A DNA stretch of 45,988 nt from Candidatus Abzuiibacterium crystallinum (GTDB lineage Bacteria; Omnitrophota; Omnitrophia; Omnitrophales; Abzuiibacteriaceae). Both the position numbers and the translations under genes were made by a program. This document shows positions 22,642 to 38,809 of this stretch, piece by piece (position 1 is the stretch's first letter; each line of letters begins with the position of its first letter). The notes beneath the pieces are model-generated. The model did no database searches, had not been told where the DNA came from, and was given only the letters and a program-made list of their open reading frames with translations. The stretch spans positions 1 through 45,988 of the forward strand of contig PCVY01000044.1 in assembly GCA_002787155.1 (NCBI GenBank), in the 5' to 3' direction.

Positions 22642-22657
22642 CTCCCGGGGTAGGGCT
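22642..22657 (-). repeat. Second copy of the tRNA-Asn 3' end (att-like scar)
   Basis: Sixteen bases identical to the tRNA-Asn 3' end at 38466-38481 (T-arm strand plus acceptor), followed on the minus strand by T and then CATTT, almost as behind the intact gene. No tRNA body accompanies it. The 22658-22751 stretch beside it is GC-rich and unexplained. It looks like a scar of an older integration at the same target. Confidence 0.65.
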
Positions 22658-26198: not shown

Positions 26199-26921
26199 TT
26201 ATTCAACAAAACGTTTTAACACATACTCAGAAAATTTTCCCATAACTTCATCGGACTGACTGTCATCAGTCAATCGACTACAGAATTTTTCGATTTCAAG
26301 TAAACAAGAATCAATAAAGTGTGGAACGTTTAGGTACATCATATCGTCGCCAATCCATTTTGGAGACCCATATTTTTCTTCAGTGTTCAAATCGTAGGTC
26401 CAAAACCCATCAGGTCGCAATTCATGGGAAAGAGCGTGACGATGCCAATCTACTAACTTTTCGGCGCAATCCTTATAACCCTTTCCCATTTGCGTAAGCA
26501 TTTCTTTGAGTACTTTGCTTGTGTTTTGTTTTTTGGAGCTCTCATATAGGTGTGGGAAATTTAATCTGCCAATAAATTCAAGATTTGGAAAGCAAATCAA
26601 AATAGGTTCAAAAAAAGCGTAATTTAAATCATCCCCATTTAGTCTTTTCTCTTTCTCATTAAAAATACGATCGAGGTAAAGATAGCGCGTTCTTAAAAGT
26701 GTTTTTTTATAATCGTATCGCAGAAAAGCTAGAAGCCCCGTTTTTGATTGCTGTTTGTTTATATCTGGAAGTTTGCAATAATTTTTGCTTCCGGCCATGT
26801 AAAGTTCGTGCGCTTCTTTGTCTTTTGTTGTATCAGACACATCACTCCAATCGACCATTAACTTAAAGTGCGATATTTCTGGCCTCTTTCTTAGATAAAC
26901 TGCCATATCTATAATTTTCAT
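26199..26921 (-). CDS. Helical protein with HEPN-like Rx4H motif
   Basis: Protein of 240 residues, mostly helical. R161-H-A-L-S-H166 (DWHRHALSHELRPDG) is an Rx4H motif followed by a turn, as in HEPN domains. Its ATG overlaps the stop of the 824-residue gene upstream (ATGA), so translation is coupled and a complex is likely. It has no detectable similarity to the other Rx4H protein at 23851-24399 beyond the motif. Function unknown; RNase toxin or structural partner of the large nuclease are the options. Confidence 0.5.
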   Translation of the reverse strand: MKIIDMAVYLRKRPEISHFKLMVDWSDVSDTTKDKEAHELYMAGSKNYCKLPDINKQQSKTGLLAFLRYDYKKTLLRTRYLYLDRIFNEKEKRLNGDDLNYAFFEPILICFPNLEFIGRLNFPHLYESSKKQNTSKVLKEMLTQMGKGYKDCAEKLVDWHRHALSHELRPDGFWTYDLNTEEKYGSPKWIGDDMMYLNVPHFIDSCLLEIEKFCSRLTDDSQSDEVMGKFSEYVLKRFVE

Positions 26922-29392
26922 TGTTCCTGCTGGGCTTGGCTTTTCTGAAGCTGATTTTTCTTTCTAGACAACCGCTTGTTCCGCTCCTGCTCGTACCACT
27001 GCCAATAAGATTCCATCCCCAAATGCATTTGTTGTGTAACATTACAAAGCTCTTGAATACCATTATATCCCCGGTAGCTTTTGGCAAATTTGCTATATGG
27101 TTCGCCTTTATCTTTCCAACATTCCGGAGCGCCAAAATCGCCAAACATTTCTATGCCTGTTAGAATCAAGACGGGATTTATCCATTCTTCTGCTTTTAAA
27201 AACTTCCGCCCTTTTTTCGCTAGATGGGAAATTATTTTTTTCTCGTGGGAATTCAATTTCGATCGCAACGTACAGAACACAATTACAGAACCGGGAAATG
27301 CGTTTGCAATTTGTTGCATCCGATCAACATCCCTTTTAGTGAATTCGTTGTACGTTTTGCTCTCTCCAAAGATGAGATTTGGAACTCCCGTACCAATCCT
27401 TCCTTGAGACAAAAACATCCCAAAATCTGCCTCCAATTCACCAATTTGATGATTCCGAATTTTAAATGAAGGCACCCAAGTAACTTTTGCTGAAAGAGGG
27501 TCTGCTAAAAATCGTATCGCTAATGCCGCGCAGTAACCACCATAAGCATAGTTTTCAACTGAGAAAGGTCCAATTGTTCTGTAGTGCCAATCGCCTTCAG
27601 GCACTGGCTTGTTGGTGGGGAAATCAAATTCTTCAAGACACCTTTCACAAATTAATTTTTCGGATAGATCGCCTAAGGCATACCAAGTGCGCTGTGTACA
27701 TTCTGGGCATTGAATAGTAAGACCACATTTCAAAACTTTATGACCAATTAAATTCTGCAAATTCCGTTCTGCAATCTCGTCAGACCAATTAACCTTTTTT
27801 AAAAGATCCTTCCATTGTTTAATTGATACCGTCTTTGCGCGAACTTTTGATTTAGACAAGCCTTCGGTTTGCCCATCGATTTCTACTTCTGCCATACTGT
27901 GCGACATTTGATTCAGCAAATTTATGATATTTTCATCTTGAAATGAACGTGTCGCAGAAATACCACCAACTGATTGGATCATCTTCAATAAAATTCTACC
28001 TGCGCTGGAAAGACTCATTTGAAAACCGCGCTCTTTAAACCATGTCTCAAAGATTTTAAAACTCGTTGGAATGTTCCAAAAGTGACTCCAATCAGAGTGC
28101 TCACAAGGAACAACAACGCCTTCCCGAGAAGACCAGAGTTTGTTGAGCCCGTGCGCTCCTAAAACGCGGTGAATATCCTTCAAATGCGGCAAAACTGAGG
28201 GGAAGTCAACTGATCGATAATCATTTCCAAAACTAATGACGTTCACCCACCTGGGTTTACCGTTTCCACTATATTTCTCAACAAATCTTGGATACAAATC
28301 TTTAAAACGAATATATCCTTCGCGCTTTGCAGTTTCCTCTGTTTCTTCGACGCTTTCAATTAAACAATGCTCAACAGCGTCTTTTCCGCGAGCCCATTCG
28401 TCCCAGATGCGCGGATACCAATGTTGCAAGCTTAGAGCACCATTCCCCGGTGATGACAGTTTTTTTGTAAACGATTCCAATTCTGTCACTTCGGATGCCC
28501 GAGAACAAATGAAGTTTGTGCAATGCATCATTTCTCTATTGTGACGGTAAGGCACGTAGTTTCTTTTAATAATTATGTTGCACTGCTCAATCGAATCTTC
28601 AGCAAATTGTTTAGGTAAGGGCAAAACATTTCTTCCAACAGCTCTTAAGTTCCAGTAATCCACTAGATCGAGCCATGAATTTGCATCCATGAAAAATATT
28701 GCCGGGTCATCCCGCCCACCATTGGGAATATTTCGCAGATCTACTTTGGTAAGACGTAACGGAGAAGCTCCCTTTTCAACAAAACATTTAAGAACTTTCT
28801 TCTCGGTAATTTGCACTTCCTGAGGATTAAAACAGTGCTTGTAATTTTTCTTTATATATTCCAGTCTTTTTTCCAGTGGGAATTCACCAAAGCAGCATGC
28901 AGAAAATAATGCCATTTCCTTTTTTGGATCGGAAAGAAATACTTTGATTGGGTGACGGCGTTCAAACTTGAATTCCTTTTCGTATAAATCCCAATACACT
29001 TCCGTAATATCAACACCAAATGAAAATGGTTCATCTTTGTTGGGATCAAGAACGTCCTTAAAATCCAGTATTCTTTCTTGATCAAACAAAAGATTTGGCA
29101 ATGAGGTTTTGTCCTTAACAACCAAAAAATCGGGCTCGAAAGCATCTAAATAACCATTCACAATCGAAAGTGCGGTTGGTAATTTAAAACGATTTTTTTC
29201 CCAAATTTTTGGTGTTCTTTTAAAAAATGGCACGATTGGATTAAAAATCCCACCCCATAAACATGTATTGAGACGAAAAACCTCTCGCAAAGTTCTTTTG
29301 TCATCCTTTTCTACAAGGAACGCTAACCTAATAGGACGGAGACGTTTATTAATAGTAATAATTCTTTCTCTTGTGACCTTGTCATTTCTCAT
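26918..29392 (-). CDS. Large PD-(D/E)XK nuclease with zinc ribbon
   Basis: First gene of the six-gene operon, 824 residues from the ATG at 29392 (GAGGGG upstream; an in-frame TTG lies at 29413). The N-terminus carries a striking CLWGGIFNPIVP motif in a domain I cannot name. Residues 562-585 form a Cys4 zinc ribbon (CPEC ... CERC). The C-terminal part has a PD-(D/E)XK site with D656 (LEADFGMF) and E677-S-K679 (FGESKTYNEF). The tail is basic and Gln-rich. The architecture suggests a sensor/recognition N-terminus and a DNA-cutting C-terminus. No known defence system matches it to my knowledge. Confidence 0.6.
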   Translation of the reverse strand: MRNDKVTRERIITINKRLRPIRLAFLVEKDDKRTLREVFRLNTCLWGGIFNPIVPFFKRTPKIWEKNRFKLPTALSIVNGYLDAFEPDFLVVKDKTSLPNLLFDQERILDFKDVLDPNKDEPFSFGVDITEVYWDLYEKEFKFERRHPIKVFLSDPKKEMALFSACCFGEFPLEKRLEYIKKNYKHCFNPQEVQITEKKVLKCFVEKGASPLRLTKVDLRNIPNGGRDDPAIFFMDANSWLDLVDYWNLRAVGRNVLPLPKQFAEDSIEQCNIIIKRNYVPYRHNREMMHCTNFICSRASEVTELESFTKKLSSPGNGALSLQHWYPRIWDEWARGKDAVEHCLIESVEETEETAKREGYIRFKDLYPRFVEKYSGNGKPRWVNVISFGNDYRSVDFPSVLPHLKDIHRVLGAHGLNKLWSSREGVVVPCEHSDWSHFWNIPTSFKIFETWFKERGFQMSLSSAGRILLKMIQSVGGISATRSFQDENIINLLNQMSHSMAEVEIDGQTEGLSKSKVRAKTVSIKQWKDLLKKVNWSDEIAERNLQNLIGHKVLKCGLTIQCPECTQRTWYALGDLSEKLICERCLEEFDFPTNKPVPEGDWHYRTIGPFSVENYAYGGYCAALAIRFLADPLSAKVTWVPSFKIRNHQIGELEADFGMFLSQGRIGTGVPNLIFGESKTYNEFTKRDVDRMQQIANAFPGSVIVFCTLRSKLNSHEKKIISHLAKKGRKFLKAEEWINPVLILTGIEMFGDFGAPECWKDKGEPYSKFAKSYRGYNGIQELCNVTQQMHLGMESYWQWYEQERNKRLSRKKNQLQKSQAQQEQ

Positions 29393-29432
29393 TGCTCGCC
29401 CCTCACCCCACAAATAAATCTTTACTTTCGGT

Positions 29433-29471
29433 TTATTTTCGGTATCATAGTGCCGATAATAATTTTGTCAA
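29433..29471. promoter_or_regulatory. Face-to-face promoters under one 30-bp dyad (LexA-type operator)
   Basis: The dyad TTATTTTCGG / CCGATAATAA (29433-29442 and 29453-29462, one mismatch) has a 10-bp centre. The minus promoter is TTGACA (29466-29471), 16-bp spacer, TATGAT (29444-29449). The plus promoter is TTTACT (29421-29426), 16-bp spacer, TATCAT (29443-29448). Both -10 hexamers lie in the dyad centre, so one bound repressor would shut both the LexA-methyltransferase gene and the six-gene operon. Confidence 0.65.
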
Positions 29472-29479
29472 TCAAATTT

Positions 29480-31354
29480 ATGCTTACGCCGATCACAAAA
29501 AGACAAAAACAAATTCTGGATTTCGTTCACTCCTACACCAAAAAGCGCGAATACGCGCCTTCTCTCGAAGACATTAAAAAGCATTTTGATTTGTCCTCGG
29601 TTGCCACGGTTCATCAACATGTCGATGCGCTGAAACGAAAAGGGTATCTCAAAAAGACTGCGAATCAACCGCGAGCAATTGAAGCATACAAAAAAAAGCC
29701 GCGAGAAAATGTTGTGCAAATCCCACTTCTTGGAACGATTGCTGCTGGGGCCCCTATCGAGGCAATTGAGGATCCGGAAACAATAACGGTCGCAAAAGAA
29801 ATGCTTACAAATCCCGGCAGGCATTTCGCGCTGCGCGTTAAGGGAAATAGCATGATTGATGAAGGGATTTTTGACGGCGATACCGTAATTATCCGTGAGC
29901 AACCCACGGCAGAAAATGGCGAGACTGTTGTTGCCATCGTTAATGAAAATGAAGCGACATTAAAAAGACTTTTCCGAGAAAAAAATAAAATCCGCCTCCA
30001 ACCTGCCAATCAAACACTATTACCGCTTTATTTTGATGAAGTTGAAATTCGCGGCAAGGTCATCAGCGTCATTCGCAATTACTCTCGTGGTAAAGAAGAA
30101 CCGTTATCGTTGCTTCCAAGAAAACTCGAGAGGCGGATTGATTACTCATGGGATTTTAACGGAGCGCATACAAAAACTTTCACACACGGCTTGCATCCTT
30201 ACCCGGCGATGTTTATTCCCCAAGTTGCCAACCGTTTACTTAAAAGTTACAGCAATGAAGGAGACACGATCTGCGACATCTTTTGTGGAAGCGGCACTGC
30301 TTTGGTCGAAAGTCGACTTCTCAATCGAAATGCTTATGGCATCGATTTAAATCCATTTGCCGTGCTTCTCGCAAAAGCAAAGACAACAGAAATTGACCCG
30401 AAGCTTCTTCAAAAAGAATACATTAAATTGCTTGATACATTTGGTTCGTTAAACACAAAAACCATCCCGCAACCAAAATTTTTTAATATTGAGTTTTGGT
30501 TTAAATCGGAGGTGATCAAAAAATTAGCAAGACTAAAATATGCGATTTTTGAGACCAAGAACACAGCCATAAGAAATTTTTTCTTAACTTCTTTTTCAGA
30601 AGTCGTGCGTTTAAGTTCAAATACAAAAAATAATGAATTCAAGCTTGTTCGCATGCCTACGGATGAACTTTCCAAGCACAACCCGGATGTTTTTGGAATG
30701 TTCAAACAAAAAACGGAAAAAAACATCGCTCGTATGAGTGAATTCTCCCAAGTTGTAAACAAAAAGACATGGGCAAAAGTTGTCCACGGCAACTCGGCTG
30801 ATCGAAACGTGATCGAAAACGAATCGATCGACTGCATTATTACATCGCCACCATACGGCGACAGCCGGACGACGGTTGCTTATGGTCAATTCTCAAGATT
30901 GGCTTCCCAATGGCTAGGTATCGTTGACGATAACCAACAAGTTGATAATCTTCTTCTCGGTGGGAAAAGAACAAATGGACTTACCCATCATTTAAATTCT
31001 GAACATTTAGATGAGGCAATCGAAAAAGTTGCCAAGCAAGATGAGCAGAGAGCAAGAGACGTTTTGAGTTTCTATATTGATCTTGAAAAATGCCTCAAAA
31101 ACGCCTACAGGATTTTAAAGAAGGGGAAATATTTTTGTTTGGTGGTCGGTAATCGAACCGTCAAACAAATTCAGCTGCCTACGGATTTTATTATCGCGGA
31201 ATTGGGCGACACAATCGGGTTTGACTTGATTGATCTATTTGTTCGGAATATACCAAACAAACGCATGCCTCTCAAAAACTCCCCAACAAACGTCGTTGGG
31301 AAACTTGAGTCAACGATGTGCAAAGAAAGCATCGTGATTCTGAAGAAAGTCTAG
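29480..31354 (+). CDS. LexA repressor fused to SPPY-type DNA methyltransferase
   Basis: Protein of 624 residues. The start at 29480 gives the normal LexA N-terminus (LTPITKRQKQILDF). Residues 1-70 are the winged-helix DNA-binding domain. A89-G90 is the self-cleavage site. Ser124 (GNSM) and Lys162 are the catalytic dyad at LexA spacing. From about residue 215 a DNA methyltransferase follows: FTHGLHPYPAMF, motif I DIFCGSGT (266-273) and motif IV SPPY (456-459), which points to N4-cytosine methylation. The reading frame is continuous. It would tie methylation and repression to the SOS response. Two restriction-endonuclease genes lie convergent to it. Confidence 0.85.
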   Translation: MLTPITKRQKQILDFVHSYTKKREYAPSLEDIKKHFDLSSVATVHQHVDALKRKGYLKKTANQPRAIEAYKKKPRENVVQIPLLGTIAAGAPIEAIEDPETITVAKEMLTNPGRHFALRVKGNSMIDEGIFDGDTVIIREQPTAENGETVVAIVNENEATLKRLFREKNKIRLQPANQTLLPLYFDEVEIRGKVISVIRNYSRGKEEPLSLLPRKLERRIDYSWDFNGAHTKTFTHGLHPYPAMFIPQVANRLLKSYSNEGDTICDIFCGSGTALVESRLLNRNAYGIDLNPFAVLLAKAKTTEIDPKLLQKEYIKLLDTFGSLNTKTIPQPKFFNIEFWFKSEVIKKLARLKYAIFETKNTAIRNFFLTSFSEVVRLSSNTKNNEFKLVRMPTDELSKHNPDVFGMFKQKTEKNIARMSEFSQVVNKKTWAKVVHGNSADRNVIENESIDCIITSPPYGDSRTTVAYGQFSRLASQWLGIVDDNQQVDNLLLGGKRTNGLTHHLNSEHLDEAIEKVAKQDEQRARDVLSFYIDLEKCLKNAYRILKKGKYFCLVVGNRTVKQIQLPTDFIIAELGDTIGFDLIDLFVRNIPNKRMPLKNSPTNVVGKLESTMCKESIVILKKV

Positions 31355-32130
31355 TGGCAAAGTCGCTTTAACTCCTGACCAATTTTTGAAAAACGTTTGA
31401 TCTTTCCATATTCGTTAACTTCTTTGTTGCACACATAAACACCGTCCAGCTCTTGCGCCCGTTCTTTGTTGGCACCATCTTCAAAAACATCCCATGCTAT
31501 AACCAAATATATTTTGAGTTTTTTCATCGGAGAGGACTTTAAAAATCGGGACCAACTTATCGTCTGTGTCATTCTTTCCCGCGAGGTTGTTTTCGTTGAA
31601 ATAATGGCAACTGGTTTGTCATTCAAATCGCTCCGCACCAGAATAATATCGATGTCCGGCTTATAATCACGAGCTTGTTTTTGTCCTCGGATCTTGACGA
31701 GAAAACTTTTGTTTAAAACGGTTTTGATCTTTCCCTTTGTGATAGCTTTCAACGGCAGTCTTGCGTCTTCCAAGTAAGTATTCAAAATTTTTGCTATCCA
31801 TAGTGTAAATTTGTTTCCTGCGAGAGGCCGCATGGTGTTGGCGATGCTTTTTCCAATCAGACGTAGCTCCATTAACATTCTTGGATCGGCAAGAATTTTC
31901 TGCCACTTCGCGCGCGTTTCCAAACTCGCCCATTTCCTAACAGCTCTCGGCGCAACAATTTTTACAACTTCTTTATCTGATTTTTTCAGGATCATCGCGA
32001 TATTATTCCCAACTTCCAATGGGTTATTTGGCTTCTTTAAAGCAGACTTGAGTTTGTTATCAAAAAACTTATTGATAACATCTTTAAACTCGTTTTCTTG
32101 ACTTCTATTCAAGACTGCAGACCGCACCAT
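31351..32130 (-). CDS. BsaWI-like type II restriction endonuclease
   Basis: Protein of 259 residues. The ATG at 32130 overlaps the upstream stop by one base (TAATG) and is preferred over an in-frame start at 32160. The catalytic segment KPDIDIILV ... AIISTKTTSRERM resembles the BsaWI family (D ... S-x-K, then the conserved RER), which cuts CCGG-type sites. A helical N-terminal half (about 1-130) is usual for this group. Its stop codon shares the palindrome CTAG with the stop of the convergent methyltransferase gene. The recognition sequence is unproven. Confidence 0.7.
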   Translation of the reverse strand: MVRSAVLNRSQENEFKDVINKFFDNKLKSALKKPNNPLEVGNNIAMILKKSDKEVVKIVAPRAVRKWASLETRAKWQKILADPRMLMELRLIGKSIANTMRPLAGNKFTLWIAKILNTYLEDARLPLKAITKGKIKTVLNKSFLVKIRGQKQARDYKPDIDIILVRSDLNDKPVAIISTKTTSRERMTQTISWSRFLKSSPMKKLKIYLVIAWDVFEDGANKERAQELDGVYVCNKEVNEYGKIKRFSKIGQELKRLCH

Positions 32131-32840
32131 TAAAACAGTTTCTCCCGCGTTTGATAACATTCCATTAGGCGTCGTTTGTGAACCCGAAATGCCGTTCCGT
32201 GATTTCGCACCGTTCCTTTGCTTCGCAAATGCATCCGGAAATCAACCGTGACGGCATCGCTTTCAACAAGCTTACAAAACGATTTGAAATTGAATCCTTC
32301 GAGCAAATAAGCGTCCGAGAAATGGAAGCGTTCTTGATCGTCTTCAAGCATGGTTGCCGCTTCAACGACGATCAATTTTTGAATTTTCTTATCAAATCGA
32401 TCGCTTAGCGCTTCAAAGTCCCAGTAAATATCGATATCTTTTTTCGATGAAATAACGCGAATGGCGTTTTGTTCTACACACAATTTCAAAGACTGGTTAT
32501 TAAACCGGCTCGCATTAATCGTGCAATAAAGTTCACACTTGCGGCCATCCTTTTCGCGACAATACCCAAATTCCTTTAAAAGCATCTTGTCTCGTTCGCC
32601 TCCGGCCGGTTTGGGTTCGCAGGTAAATAGCGTTAGCATAGAGCACGAATCTTTACGATATGCTTTTAATTCGATATCTCCAAGATCAGCGAGAGGCACG
32701 TTGTTTTCTTTGATATCAAGCAAGCATTCCAAGGTATAACCGATTCCTGTGTCGCCCTTCCTCATGCTTTGAACAAACTCTTTTGCCGCGATTTTTTTGA
32801 GCTTATCCTTGAATTCATCCAGCGATTTAAAAACGTGCAT
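32130..32840 (-). CDS. MvaI/BcnI-family restriction endonuclease
   Basis: Protein of 236 residues from ATG 32840 (AAGGGATG upstream; TTG at 32846 is a weaker start). GIGYTLECLLDI ... DLGDIELKAYRKDS is the MvaI/BcnI signature, with the metal-binding E-x-K in IELKA. Family members are monomeric enzymes that nick each strand of CCWGG or CCSGG in turn. It is translationally coupled to the BsaWI-like gene. Only one methyltransferase accompanies the two nucleases, so either both recognise overlapping sites or one is not a classical restriction enzyme. Confidence 0.75.
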   Translation of the reverse strand: MHVFKSLDEFKDKLKKIAAKEFVQSMRKGDTGIGYTLECLLDIKENNVPLADLGDIELKAYRKDSCSMLTLFTCEPKPAGGERDKMLLKEFGYCREKDGRKCELYCTINASRFNNQSLKLCVEQNAIRVISSKKDIDIYWDFEALSDRFDKKIQKLIVVEAATMLEDDQERFHFSDAYLLEGFNFKSFCKLVESDAVTVDFRMHLRSKGTVRNHGTAFRVHKRRLMECYQTREKLF

Positions 32841-32893
32841 GATCAACCATCCCTTCGATTGTCTTAATATCGTCTTGCAAGGGATGTCGATTG

Positions 32894-35420: not shown

Positions 35421-36119
35421 ATGGGGAAATTCGCTAAATACCTCGAGAAGCGGCTTGAAGAAAAAAATGTCACCAAGGCCGAACTCGCCAGAAAAATTGG
35501 CCTCAAGCGGCAAAATTACATCAACAACATCGTTGCCGGGCTTCACACTCCCACCATCAAACGTGTTGAGCAAATAGCTAAGGCGCTCGATTGCAATCAC
35601 CTTGAAAGATTGGAATTAATACGTCTGGCGGCGGAAGAAAGAACGCCCGACGAATTGAAAAAACACTCTTCGGTGCAAAGACTTCGGTTTTGTTATCAGG
35701 TTTCTGATGTCGATCAACTAAGCAATTTAAGCGCACTGCGCGAATCGAAATTTCTTAATGAATATTTGCTCGATTCCTATGTTTTTAAAATCGATACAGA
35801 TTTTTTTGCGCCTTTGATCAAAAAAGGTCAGCGGGCAATTATGTCTTTGCAAGCTCCCGTTGAAATCGGAGACGCTGGGTTTTTTCAAATTCTGGGTGAA
35901 ACCGAAGAAGACCGCAAAAAGCTCAGGGCATTTAAAGATCCATTTCCTGTTTCTGAAAAAGGTTACACGGGCGTCGTCGGTATATTGGTTGGTGGAAATG
36001 TGCGGAGTCCATACGAATCAGAAATTGAAATCCGACATCTGCAACATCCCGGGCGCGTTCTTAAAGTTTCCAGTGCGCGTTTCGGATCCATTGTGAAAAT
36101 TATGGGGATCTTGTTCTGA
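35421..36119 (+). CDS. CI-like repressor with apparently inactive S24-type domain
   Basis: Protein of 232 residues. AAGGAG lies six bases before this ATG. An XRE helix-turn-helix (about 14-60, TKAELARKIGLKRQNYINNI) is followed by a C-terminal domain whose shape (KIDTDFFAPLIKKGQRAIMS) resembles LexA/CI S24 domains. The nucleophilic Ser seems replaced and no matching Lys is evident. If so it would not self-cleave in the SOS response, and induction would need another trigger such as a helper-phage protein, as for Stl of SaPIs (inference). It starts an operon with the next two genes (1-nt and 11-nt overlaps). Confidence 0.7.
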   Translation: MGKFAKYLEKRLEEKNVTKAELARKIGLKRQNYINNIVAGLHTPTIKRVEQIAKALDCNHLERLELIRLAAEERTPDELKKHSSVQRLRFCYQVSDVDQLSNLSALRESKFLNEYLLDSYVFKIDTDFFAPLIKKGQRAIMSLQAPVEIGDAGFFQILGETEEDRKKLRAFKDPFPVSEKGYTGVVGILVGGNVRSPYESEIEIRHLQHPGRVLKVSSARFGSIVKIMGILF

Positions 36120-36844
36120 TGCGTTTCTGGATTGGCTTGATTAATTTCTTCTTTTTGATTGGACTAGTTGCCCTTGCAAATCTAACCGGTTTGTCTTGGA
36201 AAGAATATTTGTTAGTTGGAATTGGTTTGCTGCCGATGTTCTTTGGCGATGTCGGCAAATCCAGAAAATTCTTGTTAACTCTCATCGTGCTACTCATAAT
36301 TGCCTCATGTCTTATCCCATTTAAAAACATAATAGCAAATCACAGTTTTGAGAACAGGTCGCTAACGCCTTGGATATGGAAGCCTCAAATTTATCAGCTC
36401 ACCCAAAACAGTTATGCTTTATCAAACGTCCAATGCTCAATTGATCCTGAAAAAGGCCCACACGGTAGAAATGCTCTGCTTATTGAAAATAATCAAGAGC
36501 CAGGTGACCAACGGTACGGTTATTTATTTCAACAAATAGATGTCTGGCCGAATGCGGTATACACGGCTAGTTTTTACGTCAAAGGGAAAATTGGAAATAA
36601 GAGCTTATGGTTTGGGCTTAGTGATGATTGGGCAGAATACAAATCCACTCACCATGTTCAGCCGGGGGATTACAAGAAGTGGAAAAAAGAGCAAGTAGCA
36701 ACTTTGGTTACTGACGATAGCCGTTATGCTTTCGCAAAGTTCGTTTCAGAAGCGCCGGGACACTTTTGGATAGATGACGTTAATCTAAAACTCAATATTC
36801 TTGAAACAGTCAAGAGATGGTTGGGATTTAAAAATGAAGCCTAA
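36119..36844 (+). CDS. Membrane protein with exported beta-rich domain
   Basis: Protein of 241 residues. Two to three hydrophobic helices (about 3-25, 30-45 and 55-72) precede a beta-rich domain beginning NHSFENRSLTPWIW. This resembles carbohydrate-binding-module-like jelly-rolls (pattern N-x-S-F-E ... W). Its start codon overlaps the repressor stop by one base and its end overlaps the integrase start, so it is expressed with the lysogeny genes. An envelope role such as exclusion of other phages is possible but unproven. Confidence 0.6.
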   Translation: MRFWIGLINFFFLIGLVALANLTGLSWKEYLLVGIGLLPMFFGDVGKSRKFLLTLIVLLIIASCLIPFKNIIANHSFENRSLTPWIWKPQIYQLTQNSYALSNVQCSIDPEKGPHGRNALLIENNQEPGDQRYGYLFQQIDVWPNAVYTASFYVKGKIGNKSLWFGLSDDWAEYKSTHHVQPGDYKKWKKEQVATLVTDDSRYAFAKFVSEAPGHFWIDDVNLKLNILETVKRWLGFKNEA

Positions 36845-38477
36845 CAACGCAAGCCCGAAACGTTTCGTCATTTACGCCCGGTGCAGTACGGATGATCAAT
36901 CCAAGGGCGAATACACAACGCTTGACGCGCAAGTCCACCACTGCCAATGTTTCCTCGAGGCCAAAGGTTATGAGCTCGCTCGAGTTGTGAGGGACGATGG
37001 CTACAGCGGAAAAGATTTAAACCGCCCGGGGATTCAATCCATTCTCCATGAAGTCGGCAAGAAAAATGAGAAAACATTTGATGGAATCGTGTTTCTCCGG
37101 CTTGACCGATTGTCCCGGAACATGCGTGACCTTTGGGCGATTGTGGATTTATTTCAACAACACAACGTCGAATTCCAATGTGTTCAAGAATCCATCGAGA
37201 GCGTAACTCCACAAGGCCGGTTTTTCATGAACATGCTCGGCTCGCTGGCTTCTTACGAGCGCGAACAAATCGGGCAGAGAGTGAAAGCTTCTGCGCTTGC
37301 ACGGATCCGACAAGGGAGAAGAGTTGGAGGCATTCTCCCGTACGGTTACAAGTTCGTGCCCGATGGCGCTCCGCTTCCGGATGGAACGCAACCTCGAAAA
37401 GCCATCATTGATGAAGCAGTGGCGCCGAAGATTATTCTGGTTTGGCGGCTTGCTACACAAAACAAATCGATCAGAACGATTGCCCGCGAACTTGATCGGA
37501 TCGGGCTTAAAACGCCCAAAGGAAAGCCGTGGCGCGTTCAAAGTGTTTTGGGTATTTTGCGAAATCGTTTCTATTGCGGCGACGTGAAATGGAATGACGA
37601 AATTCACCCGGGCAAGCATGAAGCGCTGGTTGACCGGAAACTTTGGGAGAAAGCAAACCGGATGATCAGCGCAAATATTCCCGGACACCGTTTCTCACCA
37701 AAGCCAAAGACTTACATTTATCTCCTCGAAGGTCTTCTCAAATGTTCAGAATGCGGAAGTTATTTCATCACGAAACATTGTCACGGTCACACGAGCAATC
37801 CATTTTATTATTACGTCTGCGGCCGAAAGAATCAGGGGCTTGGATGTGAAGCCGATGCAATTTCAGCCACGTCTTTTGACAAGGCAATGATTGAATTTTT
37901 CAGAAACTCATCCAAAGATCAGCGAATGATTATTGATGCGATCGGAACAGCAATTGAGGAGGCGCGAGCGAAACTTGGTGAAGCCGATAAAAACGTGCGC
38001 GAAGTTGAAGCAAAAATTGAATCGCTCCGCGCGCAGGCAAATCAGCTTCTTGACTCGATTTTGAAAGGAGACGTTCCCAAAGGACCGACTTCTAAAGAGC
38101 GTTTGCAGAAACTCGAGGATAAAATTACAGAGCTTGAACTCCGGCGCGACAAACTCGAAGCACAAAGAAAAGCCGCTCAAATTTCATCCGAATCCGCTGA
38201 TTTTATTCACTCAAATATCGTCTACATCATGTCGCGCTTCGATGAAGCCGAACCCGCCATTCAAAAGCGATTTTTCAGAACGCTGATTAAAGAGATTATT
38301 GTCCAGAAAGACCGACTTGAAATCTCGATGTTCCTCGGTAAATCCTTCGAGCAAAACCTTCCGCACACCACCGAAGAACCCAAAGAAAAACGCCCCGCCA
38401 CTGATCACAATGGCGAGGCGTTGTTAACCACTCAAGCTTTGGGTTTGCCTAAGTGTCAAGAAATGCTCCCGGGGTAG
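36834..38477 (+). CDS. Large serine integrase, N-terminal 547 residues (split at att)
   Basis: Site-specific serine recombinase. Start ATG 36834, 11 nt inside the previous gene. The catalytic domain has YARCST with nucleophile Ser18 and the Arg-rich FLRLDRLSRN. A recombinase domain follows (about 165-260), then a zinc ribbon (CSECGSYF ... CGRKNQGLGC) and a coiled coil (about 380-450). The frame ends with codons MLPG and stop that lie in the att core and the tRNA. The stop is contributed by host DNA. Joined across the core to 22804-23301 the gene would encode 708 residues. As integrated, the protein lacks the HTH-bearing C-terminus. Confidence 0.9.
   Translation: MKPNNASPKRFVIYARCSTDDQSKGEYTTLDAQVHHCQCFLEAKGYELARVVRDDGYSGKDLNRPGIQSILHEVGKKNEKTFDGIVFLRLDRLSRNMRDLWAIVDLFQQHNVEFQCVQESIESVTPQGRFFMNMLGSLASYEREQIGQRVKASALARIRQGRRVGGILPYGYKFVPDGAPLPDGTQPRKAIIDEAVAPKIILVWRLATQNKSIRTIARELDRIGLKTPKGKPWRVQSVLGILRNRFYCGDVKWNDEIHPGKHEALVDRKLWEKANRMISANIPGHRFSPKPKTYIYLLEGLLKCSECGSYFITKHCHGHTSNPFYYYVCGRKNQGLGCEADAISATSFDKAMIEFFRNSSKDQRMIIDAIGTAIEEARAKLGEADKNVREVEAKIESLRAQANQLLDSILKGDVPKGPTSKERLQKLEDKITELELRRDKLEAQRKAAQISSESADFIHSNIVYIMSRFDEAEPAIQKRFFRTLIKEIIVQKDRLEISMFLGKSFEQNLPHTTEEPKEKRPATDHNGEALLTTQALGLPKCQEMLPG
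38461..38471. other. attR core
   Basis: AAATGCTCCCG, the right-hand copy of the direct repeat. It covers the last six bases of the tRNA-Asn gene (38466-38471) and five bases of its 3' flank, so integration leaves the tRNA sequence whole. Confidence 0.75.
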
Positions 38478-38809
38478 GGCTCGAACCTACGACCCAGCGG
38501 TTACGAACTGACTCCAATTGCTTGGAGAGTCGGACTTTCTCTTTGCCCTTTCTGCTTCGCTATGTCCTTAATGGCATAGCTTCGCAGAAATTAGGGCAGT
38601 GGGTGTAAAGTCTCTGCACTCGTGCGCAATTATTTTTTTAACGCACTAGCTCAGGATAGCCCTGCAACTTACGCAGGATTCCCCTGATTTAGCCCACTTG
38701 TCACTCCATCGTTTCCAATGGAGGCTGCTAACTTGGCTGACGATCAGGGACAGTTCCTAACCGTAACCTTCGGCACAGCCGCTTGCTCTACCAGCTGAGC
38801 TACCCGGGA
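38466..38809 (-). tRNA. tRNA-Asn(GUU) interrupted by a group I intron
   Basis: The 5' exon is 38775-38809 (35 nt: acceptor TCCCGGG, D-arm, anticodon-stem strand AGCGG, then CTGT). The 3' exon is 38466-38503 (38 nt: TAA, CCGCT, variable loop GGGTC, T-arm, acceptor CCCGGGA, discriminator G). Joined they form a perfect 73-nt tRNA with anticodon loop CTGTTAA, hence Asn. CCA is not encoded. The intron splits the anticodon between its second and third bases. The promoter is at 38962-38990. The element has replaced its original terminator. Confidence 0.9.
38504..38774 (-). other. 271-nt group I intron in the tRNA-Asn anticodon
   Basis: The 5' exon ends in U and the intron ends in G, as group I introns require. 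Read on the minus strand: P5 hairpin CCTGC/GCAGG (38661-38678), P3 AGTGGG/CCCACT, the conserved R segment GTGCAGAGACTTTACACCC (38601-38619), the S segment GAAAGTCC (38532-38539), P7 GACTTT/AAAGTC, a long P8 hairpin (38550-38591) and a P9 hairpin near the 3' end. The guide region GGUUA-CGGUU can pair with both exons. There is no homing endonuclease frame. Its size and core resemble the IC3-type introns of cyanobacterial tRNA-Leu. Confidence 0.85.

Follow-up and report, generated by a model that had tools for sequence, protein, structure and literature searches.

Methyltransferases fused to a repressor that controls their own promoter are known, in the form of M.Ecl18kI, M.SsoII and M.EcoRII (PMC12707154), and in the literature that we searched these methylase-HTH fusions are the closest known kind to the protein described here. 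A LexA-methylase fusion was not found in that literature, the scope of which did not extend to the study of the Patescibacterial SOS network published in 2017 (Environ Microbiol).

The present locus lies in a 45,988-nucleotide stretch of DNA from Candidatus Abzuiibacterium crystallinum (contig PCVY01000044.1), referred to below as the window. Like Ecl18kI, SsoII and EcoRII it combines an N-terminal DNA-binding regulator on a type II methyltransferase with a (predicted) operator at the methyltransferase promoter, but where those proteins carry a simple HTH, the window fusion carries a whole LexA with its autoprotease, joined to a methyltransferase of the N4/N6 type. The Ecl18kI, SsoII and EcoRII methylases are m5C enzymes; m5C partners of the LexA module occur only in other loci, not at the window locus, and, unlike the HTH of those three fusions, the LexA module is found on many kinds of methyltransferase. 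The layout differs as well, in that Ecl18kI and SsoII act on overlapping M and R promoters, whereas here the R and M genes are convergent and have separate promoters. The features of the locus are:

26918..29413, minus strand: gene for an 831-aa protein, family not recognised, divergent from the fusion gene and sharing an intergenic region with it
29421..29448, plus strand: promoter, read from the sequence, with TTTACT at 29421-29426, a 16-bp spacer and TATCAT at 29443-29448
29426..29442, plus strand: predicted direct-repeat operator, two TTTCGG units separated by TTTAT, 11-bp period
29480..31354, plus strand: LexA-methyltransferase fusion gene, 624 aa, with LexA DNA-binding domain (1-66), S24 autoprotease (82-200), linker (about 201-220) and methyltransferase (221-624; motif I FCGSGT, motif IV SPPY)
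29744..29749, plus strand: codons for Ala89-Gly90, the predicted self-cleavage pair, placed by the translation and by alignment to E. coli LexA A84-G85
31351..32160, minus strand: BsaWI-type restriction endonuclease-like gene, convergent to the fusion gene
32130..32846, minus strand: restriction endonuclease of the MvaI/BcnI family (PF15515, E=5e-52; REase_II)

A reading made earlier from the DNA letters (the sequence-only reading) had described a complete LexA running unbroken into an SPPY-type methyltransferase, and both the open frame and the Pfam, NCBIfam and MTase_II profiles uphold this. The frame at 29480-31354 is open throughout and encodes a single uninterrupted protein, in which Pfam recognizes LexA_DNA_bind (3-66), Peptidase_S24 (82-195) and N6_N4_Mtase, all in one frame. 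The match to the lexA equivalog TIGR00498 (NCBIfam) reaches 196.6 bits, where the cut-off is 110.95, with positions 2-202 of the 203 in the model covered, and the type II methyltransferase profile MTase_II scores 443.6 bits over residues 221-623 (model 22-442 of 446). These results confirm that the fusion protein is a full LexA joined to a complete type II methyltransferase. FCGSG and SPPY are unchanged in eight fusion orthologues, and the AlphaFold2 model (eight orthologues; mean pLDDT 70) has a winged-helix part, a beta-rich S24 part and a Rossmann-type methylase, with low confidence for the linker around 201-245; Foldseek matched it to structures of LexA and of SAM methylases. The C-terminal 400 aa and the neighboring endonuclease match the type II methyltransferases that are paired with MvaI/BcnI endonucleases, although ordinary enzymes of that kind are without the LexA part and its operator.

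Compared with LexA itself, the fusion shares the DNA-binding domain, the S24 domain, the A-G pair, the Ser-Lys dyad and a direct-repeat box of 11-bp period in its own promoter; it differs in the 400-aa methylase attached, and its branch is separate from that of the sampled housekeeping LexAs. Direct-repeat LexA boxes of the same period are known, as in the GTTC-N7-GTTC of Alphaproteobacteria (PMC8565304). In the window, TTTCGGTTTATTTTCGG at 29426-29442 presents two TTTCGG units 11 bp apart and occupies the spacer between the -35 and -10 elements, and relatives have TTTACT/TATGAT or TTGACT/TATACT at the same promoter position. The identical 17-mer is placed in the same way in G024, G097, G011 and G139 (five loci with the window), a second set of fusion loci has TTTCGATTYATTTTCGA in the opposite orientation just past the -10 element, and the identical 17-mer or a close form lies upstream of most fusion genes.

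A first matrix, trained on only two sequence variants from five loci (three of them close relatives), was applied to 20 fusion promoters kept out of the training, and 14 of these contained a match at p<=0.05 relative to dinucleotide shuffles (Fisher 3e-16). With a fuller matrix, which is circular for the fusion promoters because it was built partly from those same sites, 21/24 fusion promoters exceeded the 99% level of random windows, versus 1/24 endonuclease operons, and LexA control of the endonuclease promoter was rejected on the latter count. Two controls are free of this circularity. Methylase homologues that lack the fusion, including one with 54% identity to the methylase of the window, gave no operator match above the null 95% level. 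The looser pattern TTCK-N7-TTCK, expected by chance at 0.93 of 26 fusions and 0.9 of 29 unfused LexAs, stands upstream of 23 and 16 of them, respectively, the unfused LexAs being mostly Patescibacterial. An operator had been placed earlier at 29433-29462; that region does overlap the better supported direct repeat at 29426-29442, but the inverted form (TCGG..CCGA at 29439-29456) is common only to the two nearest relatives, and an inverted-repeat operator was rejected. The proposal that the methylase would be its own repressor gains support from the LexA-type operator predicted in its own promoter and conserved in relatives. From the position of this operator and its co-occurrence with fusion genes, autorepression of the methylase by the fused LexA is a well supported prediction.

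The reading that we favor, with a probability of about 0.6, is that the protein is an autorepressing, damage-inducible methylase, and that damage would raise modification over restriction. The LexA part would bind the direct repeat between the -35 and -10 elements and block RNA polymerase, and since it would do so at its own promoter, the methylase would set its own level. The trigger would be DNA damage, for example by the cognate endonuclease cutting an under-methylated chromosome, and imbalance of type II systems is known to induce SOS (PMC3874152). Activated RecA would prompt cleavage at A89-G90, splitting residues 1-89 from the S24 domain and methylase (90-624), and the methylase should survive because only the DNA-binding domain would be separated off; with that domain lost, repression would lift and more methylase would be made. 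The idea that cleavage frees the methylase part thus holds to the extent that the fragment would keep the methylase whole, but S24 would stay attached and only the DNA-binding domain would be lost.

Given that the box is on the methylase promoter and not on the endonuclease promoter, damage should raise modification rather than restriction, which corrects the sequence-only reading, where modification level and restriction were both linked to damage. Antisense effects on the endonuclease might come in addition from the convergent, overlapping gene ends. It is in this form that we infer binding, cleavage and a protective outcome for the fusion. In type I systems, restriction alleviation by ClpXP protects the host from its own restriction at unmodified sites (PMC11109961, PMC4231737). 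ClpXP alleviation destroys the restriction subunit; the fusion would instead raise methylase synthesis.

The self-cleavage apparatus proposed from the sequence, an Ala89-Gly90 site and a Ser124/Lys162 dyad, proved to be invariant. A89-G90, S124 and K162 align with A84-G85, S119 and K156 of E. coli LexA and are kept in 44/44 fused modules, in an alignment that has just 20 invariant columns out of 196 and a median identity of 0.62 per column; conservation of the A-G pair or the serine is partly selected in the loci from the genome-contig collection, because these were chosen by patterns spanning IAAG or G-x-SM, while conservation of the lysine is free of this selection, as are the loci that came from the genome search. 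We infer from these residues that the fusion protein would undergo SOS cleavage.

It is nonetheless conceivable, if rather unlikely, that the LexA part is only a dimeric DNA-binding regulator of methylase level, with self-cleavage vestigial or irrelevant in vivo. S24 domains can also serve for dimerization alone, and an operator at the fusion's own promoter is what such a regulator would have. MTase-HTH autorepressors are already known (PMC12707154; compare the HTH of Ecl18kI and SsoII), and RecA was not found in the host assembly (G000, 95% complete) with PF00154 and TIGR02012, a result that also counts against the damage-inducible reading. What argues against a pure autorepressor is that the cleavage pair and the dyad are invariant across the fused modules when most other columns are variable. 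A RecA gene was found in 23 of 30 relatives, and of 15 genomes checked, the majority of which carry a fusion, 12 had RecA above cut-off; it was not found in the family relative G076 (72% complete), and none was above cut-off in G079, a fusion genome in two contigs. Both G000 and G079 keep an intact self-cleavage module though RecA was, respectively, not found and not above cut-off. The host also has a second, divergent LexA (L003/L249; G000 C48 1266-1910), which adjoins a Y-family polymerase gene.

That the LexA part serves to anchor the methylase at LexA boxes, targeting modification or modulating the host SOS regulon instead of its own gene, we consider improbable. The Patescibacterial fusion box does resemble the box upstream of unfused lexA genes, so cross-binding would be possible, but in the host genome the exact 17-mer is present once, at the fusion gene, and the four other, loose matches all lie inside genes. 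Those matches were rejected as an SOS regulon, and since the 17-mer is single and the rest intragenic, no wider regulon of the fusion protein was seen in the host.

A slightly poorer prospect still is a processing module, in which cleavage would mature the enzyme and a free methylase would be the goal, with no role in transcription. The cleavage site is indeed upstream of a complete methylase, but this scheme leaves the conserved DNA-binding domain and its accompanying operator unexplained, and the S24 domain would stay attached to the methylase.

The host assembly being a draft of 76 contigs, an assembly error or frameshift could in principle have joined a lexA and a methylase gene, an explanation that is scarcely credible and was rejected because the same junction is conserved in seven other contigs and analogous junctions occur in dozens of genomes. 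The seven contigs (58-76% identity across the junction) are G024, G011 and G139 from the phylum of the window and L053-L056 from the genome-contig collection, three of the latter labelled Patescibacteria, Levybacteria or Berkelbacteria. The two observations that the sequence-only reading had named as fatal to it, a frameshift or join near codon 205 and absence of the fusion from relatives, are both contradicted by these contigs.

At least five kinds of methylase carry a related LexA module as a fusion (several PF01555 types, D12-like, type III-like and m5C). In G097 a LexA 78% identical to that of the window sits on a quite different methylase, and G079, G258, G118, G037, G239, G205 and others provide further kinds; the m5C partners come from three loci of the genome-contig collection (L057, PF00145 E=2e-97; L072 and L087 by similarity), and the fused enzymes of L217 and L220 (Patescibacteria) resemble D12 on inspection of the sequence. 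As judged by open-frame length, fusions are present in 11 of 384 genomes of the window's phylum (about 3%) and in 20 of 380 Patescibacteria genomes (about 5%), and several of the Patescibacteria fusion genomes also have an ordinary unfused LexA. No fusion covering 80% of the query was found in named phage or plasmid records, and nothing was found when viral contigs were scanned with the full fusion protein; a scan of viral contigs with the LexA modules gave one fusion, L133. One contig (L034, G011 C93) has two LexA-methylase fusions with different upstream repeats, the TTTCGG direct repeat at one and the palindrome GGTGTCATTGACACC at the other.

A tree of 106 LexA domains places the fused modules and six unfused LexAs in one group, with weak support (SH-aLRT 82), and the fused/unfused state changes 3 times versus 23 in shuffles. 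Among the six, L044 runs to the edge of its contig and may be a truncated fusion, and others lie beside methylases: in L046 lexA is followed by a D12-like gene, L045 has a divergent m5C gene, and L058 has a D12-like gene nearby.

Returning to the damage-inducible methylase, we see an even chance that repressor, autoprotease and box together constitute a mobile LexA cassette, placed before at least five unrelated kinds of methylase, that would make modification SOS-inducible and protect cells from their own restriction. The cassette reading covers Patescibacteria and another phylum, lineages where regulation has hardly been studied and where a few per cent of the genomes carry the fusion. If it is true, the level of modification would be tied directly to DNA damage through one polypeptide, and type II restriction systems would gain a built-in safety valve. 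One LexA module on many methylases is also a natural series, which makes testable the idea that self-restriction triggers methylase synthesis by way of LexA cleavage.

An exact 16-nt direct repeat, CTCCCGGGGTAGGGCT, is found at 22642-22657 and 38466-38481, the right one overlapping a serine recombinase gene (36801-38477) at its end, and the two copies probably mark the boundaries of a 15.8-kb integrative element in which the restriction-modification system resides. Within it, the C-terminal half of an HTH_3 regulator (35421-36119) is S24-like by eye, without an evident Ser-Lys dyad, and this regulator is likely the element's own CI-like switch. A second copy of the operator was not found elsewhere in the element or the window; on this ground, and with a separate CI-like regulator present, the LexA part was rejected as master repressor of the element, and the earlier suggestion that the fusion links induction of the element (there called a satellite) to damage is not supported.

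The assignment of the methylase to a restriction system is borne out by the adjoining endonuclease-like genes at 31351-32846. The stop codons of the fusion and the BsaWI-like gene overlap by 4 nt (CTAG, 31351-31354), and in the window a single methylase has two endonuclease-like genes of different families, BsaWI-like and MvaI/BcnI, beside it. The 831-aa protein on the other side (26918-29413) has no Pfam match but contains a Cys4 zinc ribbon along with a nuclease-like D...ExK stretch.

A search for other LexA-methylase fusions and their flanking nucleases had been proposed, and such fusions occur in dozens of genomes. The next gene after the fusion is convergent in 24 of 26 loci, with the 4-nt stop overlap in 13, and it is a recognized endonuclease in 15 of the 24 (MvaI/BcnI, TaqI, Tsp45I, NgoFVII, BsaWI-like or generic type II, assigned by direct match or through a shared similarity cluster). 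For the nine other convergent genes, the one member tested of each family or singleton has no Pfam or PADLOC match. C (controller) proteins have a different fold, are separate polypeptides and act on the C/R promoter. The fusion is like them in controlling levels in a restriction-modification system, and ten loci also have an Xre-type protein of 72-78 aa just before the endonuclease (94 aa in one locus, where an earlier start was taken), and these proteins match R-M control proteins weakly. In four loci (L040 6946-7914, L060, L066 and L105) the endonuclease slot is held by one family with SPDxDG and VGHHM-like motifs, the tested member of which has no Pfam or PADLOC match, and this family is a candidate for a new type of endonuclease.
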